Of a DNA stretch of 64,000 nucleotides, positions 32,075 to 37,478 are shown piece after piece; within the stretch, counting starts at the first letter, position 1, and each line of letters begins with the position of its first letter. The stretch is from Halosolutus halophilus (lineage in GTDB: Archaea; Halobacteriota; Halobacteria; Halobacteriales; Natrialbaceae). The notes beneath the pieces were generated by a model. That model saw only the letters and a program-made list of their open reading frames with translations, made no database searches and was not told the origin of the DNA. The DNA lies in NCBI RefSeq assembly GCF_022869805.1, contig NZ_CP094974.1, forward strand, positions 4,340,001-4,404,000, in the 5' to 3' direction. The position numbers and the translations under genes were made by a program.

Positions 32075-33118
32075 TCAGGGCGGGAGCACGACCGCACGCC
32101 CCTCGATCTCGTTGTGTTCCAGTCGTTCCGCGACCGTGTTGATCTCGTCGAGATCGTTTCGTTCGGTGCGCAACTCGACCTCGTCGCGATCGACGAGGGC
32201 GACGAGTTCCTGGAGTTCGGCGTACTTGCCGACCAGGGTCCCCCTGAAGGCGAACTCGCCGTTGACCAGGGCCTGACTGGGTTCGTGGATGTGCCCGCCG
32301 TAGCCGACGACGTGGTGGTCGCCGCCGGCGGCGACGATTTCGGGTGCCAGTGCGGTCGTCTCGTCCCCGCCGACGAAGTCGACGACCTGCTGGGCCCCCA
32401 CGTCGTCGGTCAGGTCCGCGACGACGTCGGCGAGGTCCTCCTCGGCGGAGTTGACCGTGTGGCGAGCCCCCACCTCTTCTGCGAGTTCGAGCGCCTCGTC
32501 TTTGATGTCGGCGGCGACGATGTTCGCGCCGCTCATCGCGTCGAGACACTGGAGACCGATGTGGCCGAGGCCGCCGATGCCGATGACGACGCAGGTGTCG
32601 CCGGGATTGAGTTCGCGGACCGCCTTCTTCGCGGCGTGGTAGGCCGTGATTCCAGCGTCGGCGTGGGGTGCGATCTCGGTCGGGTCGACGCCCTCGGGAA
32701 GCGGGATCACCGCCCGCTCGTTCGTCTGGAGGTACTCGGCGAAGCCGCCGTCGGTTGTGAGGCCGTTGAACGCGCTGTTCTCGCAGTACATGTCCTCGCC
32801 GAGTCGGCAGGGCCGACAGATGCCGCAGGTCTGGACGGGGTGACAGATCACCGGATCGCCCTCCTCGACCAGCGTTACCTCGTCGCCGACCTCGGCGACG
32901 ACGCCGGCGTTCTCGTGGCCCAGCGTCATCGGCAGATCCTGTGGCGCGTACTCTTCCCACATTCCCTCGATGATGTGGTTGTCCGTCTGGCACCAGCCCG
33001 CGCCCTCGACCTCGACGAGGACGCCGTCCGATCGATCGATCTCGGGTCGATCGATCTCGTCGATCGAGAGTGCCTCGCTCATGTCGTCGGTGTACTCGTG
33101 GAGTCTGGCTGCTTCCAT
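32075..33118 (-). CDS. Zinc-dependent NAD(P) alcohol dehydrogenase
   Basis: A 347-residue medium-chain dehydrogenase from ATG 33118 (GTG 33133 would add five residues). Catalytic zinc ligands are Cys43 and His68/Glu69 (WCQTDNH, TLGHENAG), and structural zinc ligands are C98, C101, C104 and C112 (C-x2-C-x2-C-x7-C). The NAD loop is VVIGIGGLGHIGLQ. It oxidises alcohols to aldehydes or ketones. It is divergent from the amidohydrolase and DUF59 genes; all three resemble the accessory genes of actinobacterial propane monooxygenase operons. Confidence 0.93.
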   Translation of the reverse strand: MEAARLHEYTDDMSEALSIDEIDRPEIDRSDGVLVEVEGAGWCQTDNHIIEGMWEEYAPQDLPMTLGHENAGVVAEVGDEVTLVEEGDPVICHPVQTCGICRPCRLGEDMYCENSAFNGLTTDGGFAEYLQTNERAVIPLPEGVDPTEIAPHADAGITAYHAAKKAVRELNPGDTCVVIGIGGLGHIGLQCLDAMSGANIVAADIKDEALELAEEVGARHTVNSAEEDLADVVADLTDDVGAQQVVDFVGGDETTALAPEIVAAGGDHHVVGYGGHIHEPSQALVNGEFAFRGTLVGKYAELQELVALVDRDEVELRTERNDLDEINTVAERLEHNEIEGRAVVLPP

Positions 33119-33246
33119 GGTAACAACGTGCACATCACCGTACTAGGTGAAAACGTTCGCCCGAGTTATCGTTCGCTGTGACTGTCAGGTGATCCTCGAC
33201 GTCGCTGGGACCGCGATCGAACCGGTCGTTCTTCGATACCTGAAAG

Positions 33247-33260
33247 TCAGACTCGTCTGA
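33247..33260. promoter_or_regulatory. Perfect palindrome TCAGAC-TC-GTCTGA in divergent promoter
   Basis: A 14-base perfect inverted repeat with a 2-base spacer lies just before the amidohydrolase start (33270) in the 151-base gap between the two divergent units. Position and symmetry suit an operator shared by both. Confidence 0.45.
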
Positions 33261-33269
33261 AAAAGAATA

Positions 33270-34364
33270 ATGGGGGTTGCTACCGATTCACACGATGGGA
33301 TGTATCAGCAAAACGGCGAGGATGTCTTCGTCATCGACGCTCACGTCCATCTGTGGGACGCCAGGGAGGACAACATCGTCCACGAGGGTGGCGAAGAGTT
33401 CATCCAGTGCTTCTACGACTATCACACGACGTTCACGCCGGACGAGCGCCAGTGGGACATGTCGGAGTATCGCCACTACGGGGCCGATCGGATGGTCGAG
33501 GACATGTTCGGCAACGCCGCTGCCGACATGGGAATCTTCCAGCCCACGTACCTGACCGACTTCTACGACGAGGGGTTCAACACGACCCACCAGAACGCCG
33601 AACTGGCGACCGAGTACCCCGAACGGTTCGTGCTCAACGGAACCTTCGATCCGCGCGACGGTGACGAGGGAATCGAGTATCTCGAAGAACTCCACGAGAC
33701 GTACGACATTTCGGGGGTCAAGCTCTACACTGCCGAGTGGCGTGGCGACTCGAAGGGGTGGCGACTCGACGACGAGGAGGCGTTCCGGTTCTTAGAGAAG
33801 TGCCAGGAACTCGGTATCGAGAACGTCCATCCGCACAAAGGGCCGACGATCCGGCCGCTGAACCGCGACGCGTTCGACGTGAAAGACGTCGACGACGCGG
33901 CGTCGTCGTTCCCCGAACTCAACTTCGTCGTCGAACACGTCGGCCTCCCCCGACTCGACGACTTCTGCTGGATCGCCGCCCAGGAGCCGAACGTCTACGG
34001 CGGACTCGCAGTCGCCGCCCCGTTCGCCCAGAACCGCCCCGGCAAGTTCTCCGAGATCCTCTCGGAACTGCTCTGGTGGCTCGGCGAGGACCGTGTGCTG
34101 TTCGGCTCGGATTACGCGATCTGGAACCCCGACTGGCTCGTCGAGGAGGTCATGGAGGCCGAACTCACCCCGGAACACCGCGCGGAGTACGGCGTCGAGT
34201 GGGATCTCGAGACGAAACGGAAAGTGATGGGCGAGAACGCGGCCGACCTGTACGACATCGACATCGAGGAGAAACGCCGGACGTTCCAGGACGACGAGAT
34301 CAGCCAGCAGTTCGATCTCGGCGACCACTACGCGAGCGAGGAACCGGCGGCGGCGGACGACTGA
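33270..34364 (+). CDS. Amidohydrolase (COG2159) of the type linked to propane monooxygenase operons
   Basis: A 364-residue metal-dependent hydrolase/decarboxylase. The metal motif is HVH at residues 25-27 (VIDAHVHLWDAR), with further conserved segments GVKLYTAEWRGDSKGWRLDDEEAFRFLEKCQELGIENVHPHKGPTIRPL, NFVVEHVGLPRLDDFCWIA and VLFGSDYAIWNPDWLV. ATG 33300 (MYQQNGEDVF) would match the usual family start better than 33270. This exact subfamily, followed by a DUF59 gene and near a zinc alcohol dehydrogenase, is found downstream of actinobacterial prmABCD/mimABCD. Its role there is not firmly known; a maturation or catabolic role has been discussed. Confidence 0.9.
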   Translation: MGVATDSHDGMYQQNGEDVFVIDAHVHLWDAREDNIVHEGGEEFIQCFYDYHTTFTPDERQWDMSEYRHYGADRMVEDMFGNAAADMGIFQPTYLTDFYDEGFNTTHQNAELATEYPERFVLNGTFDPRDGDEGIEYLEELHETYDISGVKLYTAEWRGDSKGWRLDDEEAFRFLEKCQELGIENVHPHKGPTIRPLNRDAFDVKDVDDAASSFPELNFVVEHVGLPRLDDFCWIAAQEPNVYGGLAVAAPFAQNRPGKFSEILSELLWWLGEDRVLFGSDYAIWNPDWLVEEVMEAELTPEHRAEYGVEWDLETKRKVMGENAADLYDIDIEEKRRTFQDDEISQQFDLGDHYASEEPAAADD

Positions 34365-35233
34365 TGTCGACTCCCGACTCCAGCGACGGCGATTCCGATC
34401 GCGGCTCCCGGTCGGATTCCGACACCGTCGGCCCCGATCGGGCGGCCGTCCGCGATCGGCTCGACCGCGTCACGGATCCCGAACTCGATCGCTCGATCGT
34501 CGCCCTCGACTACGTCGACGCGATCGAGATCGACGGCGACCGCGTCACCGTCCGGTTCACCCTGCCGACGGCGTGGTGCTCGCCGGCGTTCGCGTGGATG
34601 ATGGCGATCGACGCCCGCGACGAAGTCGAAACCCTGCCGAGCGTCGCGGACGCGCGAATCATCCTGGACGAGCACATGCACGAGCAGGAGATCACCCGCG
34701 GCGTGAATGAGGGACGCTCCTTCGCCGAGGCGTTTCCCGACGCCGACGGCGACGTCGCCGCCGTCCGGGCGGAACTCGACGAGAAGGCCCGCGTCGCACG
34801 CCAGTACGACGCGATCGAGACGTTGCTCGACGCGGGTCTCGATGCCGAGACGATCGTCGAGCTTACCGTCGCGGACCTCGAGCGATCGGCGGCCAATCCG
34901 TCGGCCGCGTCCGCGGAGACGGCGAGCGATCCCACCGACGACGATGAGCGGGAGCAGCTTTCGATCTACGTCCAGAACCGCGCGGTCGCCGTCTCGGTTC
35001 CGGCAGCCCCGATCGATCGGTATCTCGAGAAAGCCCGAGAGACGGGCGTCGTCTCCGCACCTGACGACGTGTTGTTCCGGACGCCGGAGGGGCAGCCGAT
35101 CGACGCCGACTCGTTCGACCTTGTCCACCGCCGCGGGCGACTCGCACAGGTCAACATGTCCAGTCAGGGCGGAATCTGTGAGGGGTTACAGGCGGCCAGG
35201 GAGCGCCGCTTCGAGGGGGCAGGCGACGACTGA
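34364..35233 (+). CDS. DUF59 (MIP18/PaaD-like) Fe-S or metal cofactor assembly protein
   Basis: A 289-residue protein whose ATG overlaps the amidohydrolase stop by one base. Residues 27-110 form a DUF59/MIP18 domain: RVTDPELDRSIVALDYVDAIEIDGDRVTVRFTLPTAWCSPAFAWMMAIDARDEV, with the conserved DPEL and the Cys in TAWCSPA. After an acidic linker, the C-terminal part (LDEKARVARQYDAIETLLDAG and ISV.. to the end) is an extension not found in small SufT-type proteins. The tight overlap indicates a coupled function with the amidohydrolase. Confidence 0.88.
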   Translation: MSTPDSSDGDSDRGSRSDSDTVGPDRAAVRDRLDRVTDPELDRSIVALDYVDAIEIDGDRVTVRFTLPTAWCSPAFAWMMAIDARDEVETLPSVADARIILDEHMHEQEITRGVNEGRSFAEAFPDADGDVAAVRAELDEKARVARQYDAIETLLDAGLDAETIVELTVADLERSAANPSAASAETASDPTDDDEREQLSIYVQNRAVAVSVPAAPIDRYLEKARETGVVSAPDDVLFRTPEGQPIDADSFDLVHRRGRLAQVNMSSQGGICEGLQAARERRFEGAGDD

Positions 35234-35375: not shown

Positions 35376-36161
35376 CTATCCTCGGATTTCGTCGAGTCGA
35401 TCGCCGAGCACCTCACGGACCGAACTGATATCCCCGCCGATCCGGACGATCTGGTAGCCGGCGTCGATCGCCGCCTGTGCGTCGGCGGGATCGTTTCGAA
35501 TCCGACCGATCGGGATCTCGGCGGCAAGGCAGGCCTCGAGCGTTCGATCGATCGCGGCCGTCACGGCGTCGTGATTCTTCGCCGTCGGATCGCCGGCCGA
35601 CATCGATATCTCGAGATCCGCCGGACCGACGAACGCGAACCCGAGTTGCGGAACGGCGAGGATCTCTTCGATGTTTTCGACTGCCCGTTCGTTCTCGATC
35701 ATCGTCCCTACGAGGACCTCGTCGTCCTCGCCGGCGACGAAGCTGTCGACGTAGCCGGCCCACTCGCCCGATCGGCCGACGCCGACGCCTCTGTTGCCGA
35801 CGTCGCCGTCGTAAGCGAAGTAGGCCGCTTCGATCCCTCGGCGGAGTTCGCTCGCCGTCTCGATTCGGGGGAGCAGAACCGTCCGGACGCCGGCGTCGAG
35901 GACCTTCCTGACGAGGGGAGGCTCCGGAGCCGGCAGTCGAACCAGCAACTCGATGTCGGCCGCTTCGGCTGCTCGAGTGAACTCCTCGAAGGCGGTGCTG
36001 TCGTACGGGCTCGGGCCCCCGTGCTCGAAGTCCAGCCAGACGTAATCCAGCCCGAGGCGACCGAATGTTTCGATCACCGTCGGTGAGAACGTCTCCGAAC
36101 TCGCTCCGAGAACCGTCTCACCGTGTTCGAGCGCACGTCGGAACCCGTTTTCGGACCTCAT
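35376..36161 (-). CDS. HpcH/HpaI family aldolase
   Basis: A 261-residue class II pyruvate-dependent aldolase. Motifs: YVWLDFEHGGPSPYDSTAFEEF (metal-side loop), RLPAPEPPLVRKVLDAGVRTVLLPRIETASELRRG (conserved Arg and Glu), VGTMIENERAVENIEEILAVPQLGFAFVGPADLEISMS (metal Glu and Asp). Enzymes in this family cleave 2-keto-3-deoxy sugar acids or 4-hydroxy-2-oxo acids to pyruvate plus an aldehyde. Its ATG overlaps the stop of the dehydrogenase gene by 4 bases, so the two form one operon. Confidence 0.92.
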   Translation of the reverse strand: MRSENGFRRALEHGETVLGASSETFSPTVIETFGRLGLDYVWLDFEHGGPSPYDSTAFEEFTRAAEAADIELLVRLPAPEPPLVRKVLDAGVRTVLLPRIETASELRRGIEAAYFAYDGDVGNRGVGVGRSGEWAGYVDSFVAGEDDEVLVGTMIENERAVENIEEILAVPQLGFAFVGPADLEISMSAGDPTAKNHDAVTAAIDRTLEACLAAEIPIGRIRNDPADAQAAIDAGYQIVRIGGDISSVREVLGDRLDEIRG

Positions 36162-37135
36162 CCGGCCACCTCTCGGCTCAGATCGGCGCGGTTTTTCGTG
36201 GAGTCCGGCAGTCCACCGTCGTACACCGTGCGGACGTTTGCGGCCGCCTGTTGACTCATTCTGCTGAGTGCCTGCTCGGTCACGCCGCCGACGTGGGGCG
36301 TCAGGAGCACCTCGTCCCGTGCGTAGAGCGGGTGGTCGTCTCCTGGCGGTTCCGTCTCGAAGGTGTCGAGGCCGGCCCCGGCTACGGTCCCGCTCTCGAG
36401 CGCCTCGTGGAGTGCCGTCTCCTCGACGACTGCCCCCCGCGAGGTGTTGATCAGAACGCCGGTCTCGCCAAGCGCTGCCAGCTCCGCGGTCGAAACCGAG
36501 TGGCGCGTCCGATCGGTCAAGGGGACGTGAGCGCTCACCGTGTTCGATCGCTCGAACAGTGCCTCGAGCGACTCGACTCGTTCGACCCCTTCCAAGAAGG
36601 CGTCGTCGGGTTTCTTTGGATCGAACGCGAGGACGGTCATCCCTAGTCCCGTAGCGAGATCTGCCGTCTTCCGCCCGATGTTTCCAAACCCGTACACGCC
36701 GAACGTATCTCTGGTGAGTTCGTCGCCAGTGAACGCGGCCCGTTCCCAGTTGCCCGCACGGACGTGTCTGTCCGCCGTGTGGAGATTTCGACGAACGCCG
36801 AACAGCAGCGCTATCGCGTGTTCTGCGACCGACCGTGCGTTCGCGCCGGGCGTGTTACAGACGACGATATCCCGCCGCGATGCTGCCGGAACGTCTACGT
36901 TGTCGAGTCCGCTTCCGTGTTTCGCGATGACCTGCAACCGGTCCGCCCGATCGATGACATCGGCACCGAGCGGGGCCACTCTGACGATGACGGCATCGTA
37001 CCGATCGATATCGTCGAGTGCGGCCTCGTAACTGCCGTACTCGTCCATACCAGTACACCGCGCAAAATCCGCGATCGATTCCGGACCCGACGGATCGATC
37101 CGCATCGGGAGTAACACCTCCCAATCTGTGGCCAT
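36158..37135 (-). CDS. D-isomer specific 2-hydroxyacid dehydrogenase
   Basis: A 325-residue enzyme starting at the ATG at 37135, with an A/T-rich TATA region near 37157-37165. The NAD loop is VYGFGNIGRKTADLATGLGM, the catalytic Arg is in INTSRGAVVEETAL, the Glu is in LDTFETEPP and the His in LLTPHVGGVTEQA. It resembles 3-phosphoglycerate, glyoxylate or hydroxypyruvate dehydrogenases but lacks the ACT domain of serine-biosynthetic SerA. Coupling with an HpcH aldolase suggests a sugar-acid or hydroxy-acid degradation pathway, with the dehydrogenase acting on the aldolase product or its precursor. Confidence 0.92.
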   Translation of the reverse strand: MATDWEVLLPMRIDPSGPESIADFARCTGMDEYGSYEAALDDIDRYDAVIVRVAPLGADVIDRADRLQVIAKHGSGLDNVDVPAASRRDIVVCNTPGANARSVAEHAIALLFGVRRNLHTADRHVRAGNWERAAFTGDELTRDTFGVYGFGNIGRKTADLATGLGMTVLAFDPKKPDDAFLEGVERVESLEALFERSNTVSAHVPLTDRTRHSVSTAELAALGETGVLINTSRGAVVEETALHEALESGTVAGAGLDTFETEPPGDDHPLYARDEVLLTPHVGGVTEQALSRMSQQAAANVRTVYDGGLPDSTKNRADLSREVAG

Positions 37136-37478
37136 AGGTACCTGTCCACAGTCGCTGTAAAAAGTATGTGACCCGATACTCAGATCGGCTGAAACGTATG
37201 CGACCCGGTGATCAGAGACGGTGAACAGTACAGAATTTCTGGTGGGGTCCGCCACTCCGCCGATCGGTTCCGTGTGCCGGCACGTGACGGAAGGAACCCC
37301 AATTCAGGCGGCCACTGACGGGAGCGTCGGTAGTTTACTCCCCCCGTCTCCGTCCCCGGGCTCCGTGGACTCGCCGGAACGTGACGAAATACGACAGCCC
37401 CGTGTACTATCTTTCGGCTCCGATTGGAGCCAGCACCGATCGACGGTCGTCGGATAGACACTGTAGGACCGGTGTACC
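37136..37478. other. 343-base non-coding stretch with a tandem operator-like repeat
   Basis: No convincing gene is seen. The left end carries the promoter of the dehydrogenase-aldolase operon and two near-identical 32-base repeats (37164-37228). The remainder has no clear repeat or reading frame with haloarchaeal composition. Confidence 0.6.
37164..37228. repeat. Imperfect direct repeat, about 32-base unit, two copies
   Basis: Copy 1 begins GTATGTGACCCGATACTCAG (37164) and copy 2 begins GTATGCGACCCGGTGATCAG (37197), each ending near CGGCTGAAC or CGGTGAAC. Period 33 bases is about three helical turns. They lie immediately upstream of the TATA region of the leftward operon, where archaeal activators bind. 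Confidence 0.65.

Follow-up and report, generated by a model that had tools for sequence, protein, structure and literature searches.

The three genes considered here raise the question of what an alcohol dehydrogenase, an amidohydrolase and a DUF59 protein, whose families also accompany the monooxygenase genes of bacterial prm and mim operons, do together in a haloarchaeon with no such oxygenase. The genes lie in a stretch of 64,000 nucleotides of the Halosolutus halophilus genome, here called the window. Open reading frames and Pfam matches agree with the divergent arrangement described in the initial annotation, with the dehydrogenase on the minus strand and the other two genes on the plus strand:

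32075-33133, minus strand: zinc-dependent medium-chain alcohol dehydrogenase (ADH; Pfam ADH_N 2.6e-26, ADH_zinc_N 4.9e-21)
33119-33299, no strand: divergent intergenic gap between ADH and the amidohydrolase, 181 bp when taken from the conserved starts of relatives
33270-34364, plus strand: ACMSD-type amidohydrolase (AH; Pfam Amidohydro_2 1.2e-44, model pLDDT 89.7)
34364-35233, plus strand: DUF59 protein (Pfam FeS_assembly_P 7.1e-15)
34436-34753, plus strand: DUF59/CIAO2B-like domain with a DPE motif and Cys72 (Z 12.2 to CIAO2B)
34754-35233, plus strand: C-terminal domain of the DUF59 protein, tyrosine-recombinase-like, with Cys272 (Z 9.8 to Cre; Foldseek)

The AH and DUF59 genes overlap by one base, as had been annotated, with TGATG forming both the stop codon of the former and the start codon of the latter, and translation of the DUF59 gene is predicted to be coupled to that of AH through this overlap. 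From the conserved starts of relatives, the true start of ADH is likely to be the ATG at 33118 (M6) and that of AH the ATG at 33300 (M11), and the conserved divergent gap suggests that a single promoter region may serve both directions. No recoding within AH is claimed, as the apparent stops in some matches precede the conserved start codon in those plus-strand cases that were read. Short words in the intergenic DNA are common to related loci, mostly close relatives, and no regulator site is claimed from them. Beside the trio, at 35376-37255 on the minus strand, lie genes for an HpcH/HpaI aldolase and a D-2-hydroxyacid dehydrogenase that overlap by four bases, and neither recurs near the trio among the relatives sampled.

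The absence of an oxygenase from the flanks, on which the initial annotation had remarked, holds throughout the window: no diiron monooxygenase alpha or beta subunit, reductase or coupling protein and no MimG-type GroEL was matched in the 64 kb, whilst the same queries matched their positive controls. The genome-wide search for soluble diiron monooxygenase subunits that had been proposed returned no PF02332 domain in the complete 5.06-Mb genome, with the same search positive in four control records. Among 292 haloarchaeal genomes, PF02332 was found in only three, all lacking the AH-DUF59 pair, and in none of the 87 that carry AH. Diiron monooxygenase subunits thus appear to be rare in haloarchaea; the three carriers (G064, G095 and G217, with loci L164-L167) include one enzyme, L164, whose translation reads as having a YHS-like tail rich in cysteines, a trait also of phenol/toluene monooxygenases.

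Within the same 292 genomes, and with AH counted at an identity of at least 65%, AH was present in 87, the DUF59 protein in 86 and ADH in 159. AH and DUF59 occur together in 86 genomes and DUF59 never occurs without AH, whilst in the sole genome with AH alone the gene lies at a contig end (Fisher p about 2e-74, a statistic that ignores phylogeny). ADH is present in all 87 genomes with AH and in a further 72 that have neither AH nor DUF59. The DUF59 gene adjoins AH in 42 of the 43 haloarchaeal loci sampled; ADH is not nearby in four of these, although those genomes carry it elsewhere. Of the 67 loci in which the arrangement was measured, 64 have ADH and AH in divergent orientation, mostly separated by 95-250 bp, and the remaining three have both genes on one strand. 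The trio stands together in many haloarchaeal genera and the AH-DUF59 pair is kept across haloarchaeal families, so that the random association envisaged as a possible refutation of the initial annotation does not apply. The flanks vary between families, offering little information on a pathway, and it is therefore the trio that forms the unit: no pathway gene recurs beside it in haloarchaea, whose flanks share only synteny at the level of families and, now and then, a regulator of the IclR type. In two loci, L067 (G137) and L065 (G187), the gap between ADH and AH is about 1.1 and 1.9 kb, respectively, as if by insertion.

The distribution of the trio is wider than the haloarchaea. Bacterial AHs, collected from plasmid records and by scanning 84,980 species genomes, are 50-63% identical to that of the window. 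In 68 of their loci some component of a diiron monooxygenase, or the associated GroEL, lies nearby, whereas 23 have none within reach. The commonest order in the oxygenase-linked loci is alpha subunit, reductase, beta subunit, coupling protein, AH, DUF59 and GroEL, with ADH before or after. Published layouts agree, namely those of the Gordonia TY-5 and i37 operons (PMC6849523), of MSMEG_1971-1978, where MSMEG_1975-1977 encode an amidohydrolase, a conserved hypothetical protein and an alcohol dehydrogenase after the monooxygenase (PMC5445863), and of gas-seep genomes, in which an 'amidohydrolase' and an 'iron-sulfur cluster assembly protein' are present (PMC9213486). Compared with the group 5 soluble diiron monooxygenase operons (prmABCD of Gordonia TY-5 and mimABCD of Mycobacterium), the window thus shares the AH family, the DUF59 partner and the ADH type, but lacks the monooxygenase and GroEL, in a genome without any diiron monooxygenase, and has its ADH divergent rather than in line. 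A separation of the three genes from the monooxygenase has also been reported in Mycobacterium AT1 (PMC6849523).

Pairing is nearly complete with and without a nearby oxygenase. DUF59 adjoins AH in 67 of 68 oxygenase-linked and 22 of 23 unlinked loci, the exceptions being contig ends, whilst no ADH was detected nearby in 10 of the 23 unlinked loci, some of which are at contig ends. Of 20 bacterial genomes with no oxygenase near the pair, eight carry PF02332 elsewhere and 12 lack it altogether: Thermomicrobium, three Poribacteria, Dehalococcoidia, three Bacillota, an alphaproteobacterial MAG, Thermogemmatispora, Chloroflexus and a Ktedonobacterales genome. These twelve are mostly draft or metagenome assemblies, so that any single absence is weak evidence, but the pattern is not. 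Flanks in the oxygenase-free bacterial loci hold transporters, regulators and unrelated genes. That AH and DUF59 remain strictly paired where the oxygenase is absent indicates that the pair has a job of its own. What the data show is a conserved pair, its linkage to this ADH and its independence of the oxygenase; AH and DUF59 are best regarded as a single functional unit, usually accompanied by this ADH, for which oxygenase operons are one setting. The occurrence of oxygenase-free genomes in more than one bacterial phylum adds weight to the earlier proposal that the genes act jointly and without need of the oxygenase.

Phylogeny is consistent with this suggestion. In a tree of 70 AH sequences, built by a quick search with SH-aLRT as its sole support measure, the haloarchaeal proteins form one clade (support 100). 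The AH of the window falls, on a branch of 100 support, in a family that also contains AHs linked to an oxygenase and AHs free of one, separated in this quick tree by 2.17 changes per column from haloarchaeal paralogues. The tree does not give the placement of AH outside the prm-associated subfamily that would have counted against the initial annotation. A sister relationship of the haloarchaeal clade to the prm-linked clade, which the initial annotation had proposed to check, holds as far as membership of the same family is concerned, but not as a specific relationship to one clade, as the base of the tree does not resolve. Oxygenase-linked AHs do not form one clade; six label changes are seen, and starred branches make at least four of them necessary. 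The tree of ADH shows broadly the same picture, and the ADH of the window is 45-52% identical to bacterial trio ADHs as against 32-36% to paralogues of its own genome. The best solved relative is the Aeropyrum pernix ADH (1h2b; 327 bits for the window ADH), which for haloarchaeal and bacterial trio ADHs alike is more than 110 bits ahead of the next.

The AH model resembles 3irs with a Z of 25.4 and decarboxylases that depend on a metal with a Z of about 19-22, and AH shares the TIM-barrel fold and HxH...H...H...D pattern of dihydroxybenzoate decarboxylase, 5-carboxyvanillate decarboxylase and ACMSD. It differs from these ACMSD-type decarboxylases in an identity of only about 12-19% over the alignments and in its obligate DUF59 partner, and a profile search of the PDB gave no sequence match. 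The ligand set H25, H27, H187, H189, H223 and D281 is kept in 131-134 of 134 sequences (132-134 when H187 is left aside) and K151 is also invariant or nearly so. With its ligands nearly invariant, the metal site is therefore intact. The literature found holds no study of AH as an enzyme, no substrate or activity for any AH of its family, and no work on the haloarchaeal trio.

The established role of DUF59 domains is in the assembly of metal clusters, and proteins of this family are best known from Fe-S assembly. In the DUF59 protein (model pLDDT 87.9), residues 25-138 match CIAO2B at the Z-score listed above and Foldseek assigns the N-terminal domain to DUF59 structures with a probability of 1.00. 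The DPE motif and an invariant cysteine are as in CIAO2B (MIP18, SufT-like) proteins of Fe-S assembly: D38, P39, E40 and C72 are kept in 129-131 of 131 DUF59 proteins, with Cys72 in all 131 and Cys272 in 129. Unlike CIAO2B-type proteins, however, the trio protein has an additional C-terminal domain of about 160 residues that is tyrosine-recombinase-like. Residues 138-268 match Cre, XerA and XerD, and Foldseek pairs the domain with XerD (probability 0.97, E 0.051). Sequence signals are weak, with PF00589 at an E of about 0.1 in one member only, Int the best natural PDB hit at an E of 1.4, and a profile comparison that recovers the recombinase at 24% probability in the expected register. As to the catalytic RHRY residues of tyrosine recombinases, the weak profile alignment of the box I segment shows another residue in place of the GLR arginine. 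The C-terminal half is thus probably a degenerate recombinase-like domain, apparently lacking the catalytic arginine. The bacterial trio DUF59 proteins seem to share this half.

Taken with the distribution, these features favour the view, to which we would give a probability of roughly 0.5, that the trio is a self-standing catabolic or detoxifying module for a small ketone or alcohol, in which DUF59 serves AH. The molecule oxidised or reduced by ADH would be a small one similar to 2-propanol or acetol, hence a secondary alcohol or a hydroxyketone. The product of ADH would then undergo another step at a carbon bond, be it decarboxylation, hydrolysis or hydration, catalysed by AH with its metal. 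DUF59 would be a dedicated partner, most likely serving the metal site or assembly of AH, a role that we infer, as we do substrate and reaction, and that is suggested by strict pairing and by DUF59 biology. In oxygenase operons the same module would then follow, in the pathway, an oxygenase from which it receives its substrate, whilst haloarchaea and several bacterial phyla would use it without one. An indication of the substrate class comes from Actinomycetospora cultures fed with 2-hydroxyisobutyrate. This compound is broken down by way of acetone, which the oxygenase is considered to convert into acetol; there the amidohydrolase-like protein of the Mim cluster amounts to 3.2% of the proteome, Adh1 to 6.1% and MimA to 1.8%, and the GroEL-like MimG is also abundant at 4.0% (PMC7176365). 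Shares of 3.2% and 6.1% are more in line with enzymes than with assembly factors, even if MimG itself reaches 4.0%, and a small ketone or hydroxyketone would therefore be the leading substrate class. The functions originally offered, maturation of a cofactor or breakdown of a small compound derived from an alcohol, both remain plausible guesses. Against the module view stand the ten unlinked loci with no ADH detected nearby, the variable flanks, the lack of association with acetone carboxylase set out below, and the fact that DUF59 proteins are known above all from Fe-S assembly.

Of the other explanations, a maturation or repair role for AH and DUF59, directed at the neighbouring ADH or another metalloprotein and not catabolic, is the least improbable, though we consider it unlikely. 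The part played by the DUF59 family in metal-cluster assembly, the two near-invariant cysteines and the constant linkage to one ADH type all speak for it. Nevertheless, the 72 haloarchaeal genomes with ADH and without the pair imply that ADH needs neither protein, and AH retains a full set of catalytic ligands. Maturation of a soluble diiron monooxygenase, encoded elsewhere in the genome or recently lost, would account for the majority of the bacterial loci found, in which the pair lies beside the oxygenase and its GroEL, and for the eight genomes that have an oxygenase elsewhere. It is, however, already largely refuted, and decidedly improbable, given the control-backed absence of PF02332 from the window's own genome, its absence from every AH-bearing haloarchaeon, the lack of the pair in the three haloarchaeal carriers, and the 12 bacterial genomes free of PF02332; the pair is also too widely kept across haloarchaeal families for a recent loss.

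A supply of acetone to ATP-dependent carboxylation, with 2-propanol oxidised by ADH and the acetone passed to acetone carboxylase, is marginally less probable again. Related bacterial operons do act on propane, 2-propanol and acetone (PMC6849523, PMC7176365), and an acetone carboxylase gamma match is present in the same genome (G000:C1:4901381-4901719), far from the trio; but the carboxylase occurs in 7 of 87 trio genomes and in 18 of 205 other haloarchaea, which is no association. Chance neighbourhood of three unrelated housekeeping genes, each from a common family, is refuted by the near-perfect co-occurrence and by an order kept across distant haloarchaea and bacteria despite unrelated flanks, and its probability is close to negligible.

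A more specific form of the module reading is tentative, and we hold it doubtful. Here AH-DUF59 would be an unnamed two-protein metalloenzyme system for an unknown small-ketone reaction, in haloarchaea and several bacterial phyla, in which the fusion of DUF59 with a pseudo-recombinase equips AH with an unusual metal site or keeps that site in order, and the monooxygenase operons would have recruited the pair and not the reverse. The literature found assigns no function to the amidohydrolase or DUF59 protein of propane/acetone monooxygenase clusters, which appear only as companions of the oxygenase. Finding a role for the pair would close this gap in the picture of how bacteria metabolise C3 alkanes and ketones, and haloarchaea without the oxygenase would be a genetically cleaner place in which to find it.

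Two observations on the surroundings of the pair may be added. IclR regulators are typical of catabolic genes and so speak for the module reading, and an IclR-type regulator of one family, assigned by Pfam through one member of its five-locus cluster, is near the trio in five haloarchaeal loci (L034, L037, L041, L049 and L065), with IclR genes near the trio in Thermomicrobium and Thermogemmatispora too. On a plasmid of Rhizobium N324 (L081), a diverged AH-DUF59 pair is followed by gloA (glyoxalase I) and a D-hydroxyacid dehydrogenase-like gene, and this arrangement may hint at methylglyoxal chemistry.
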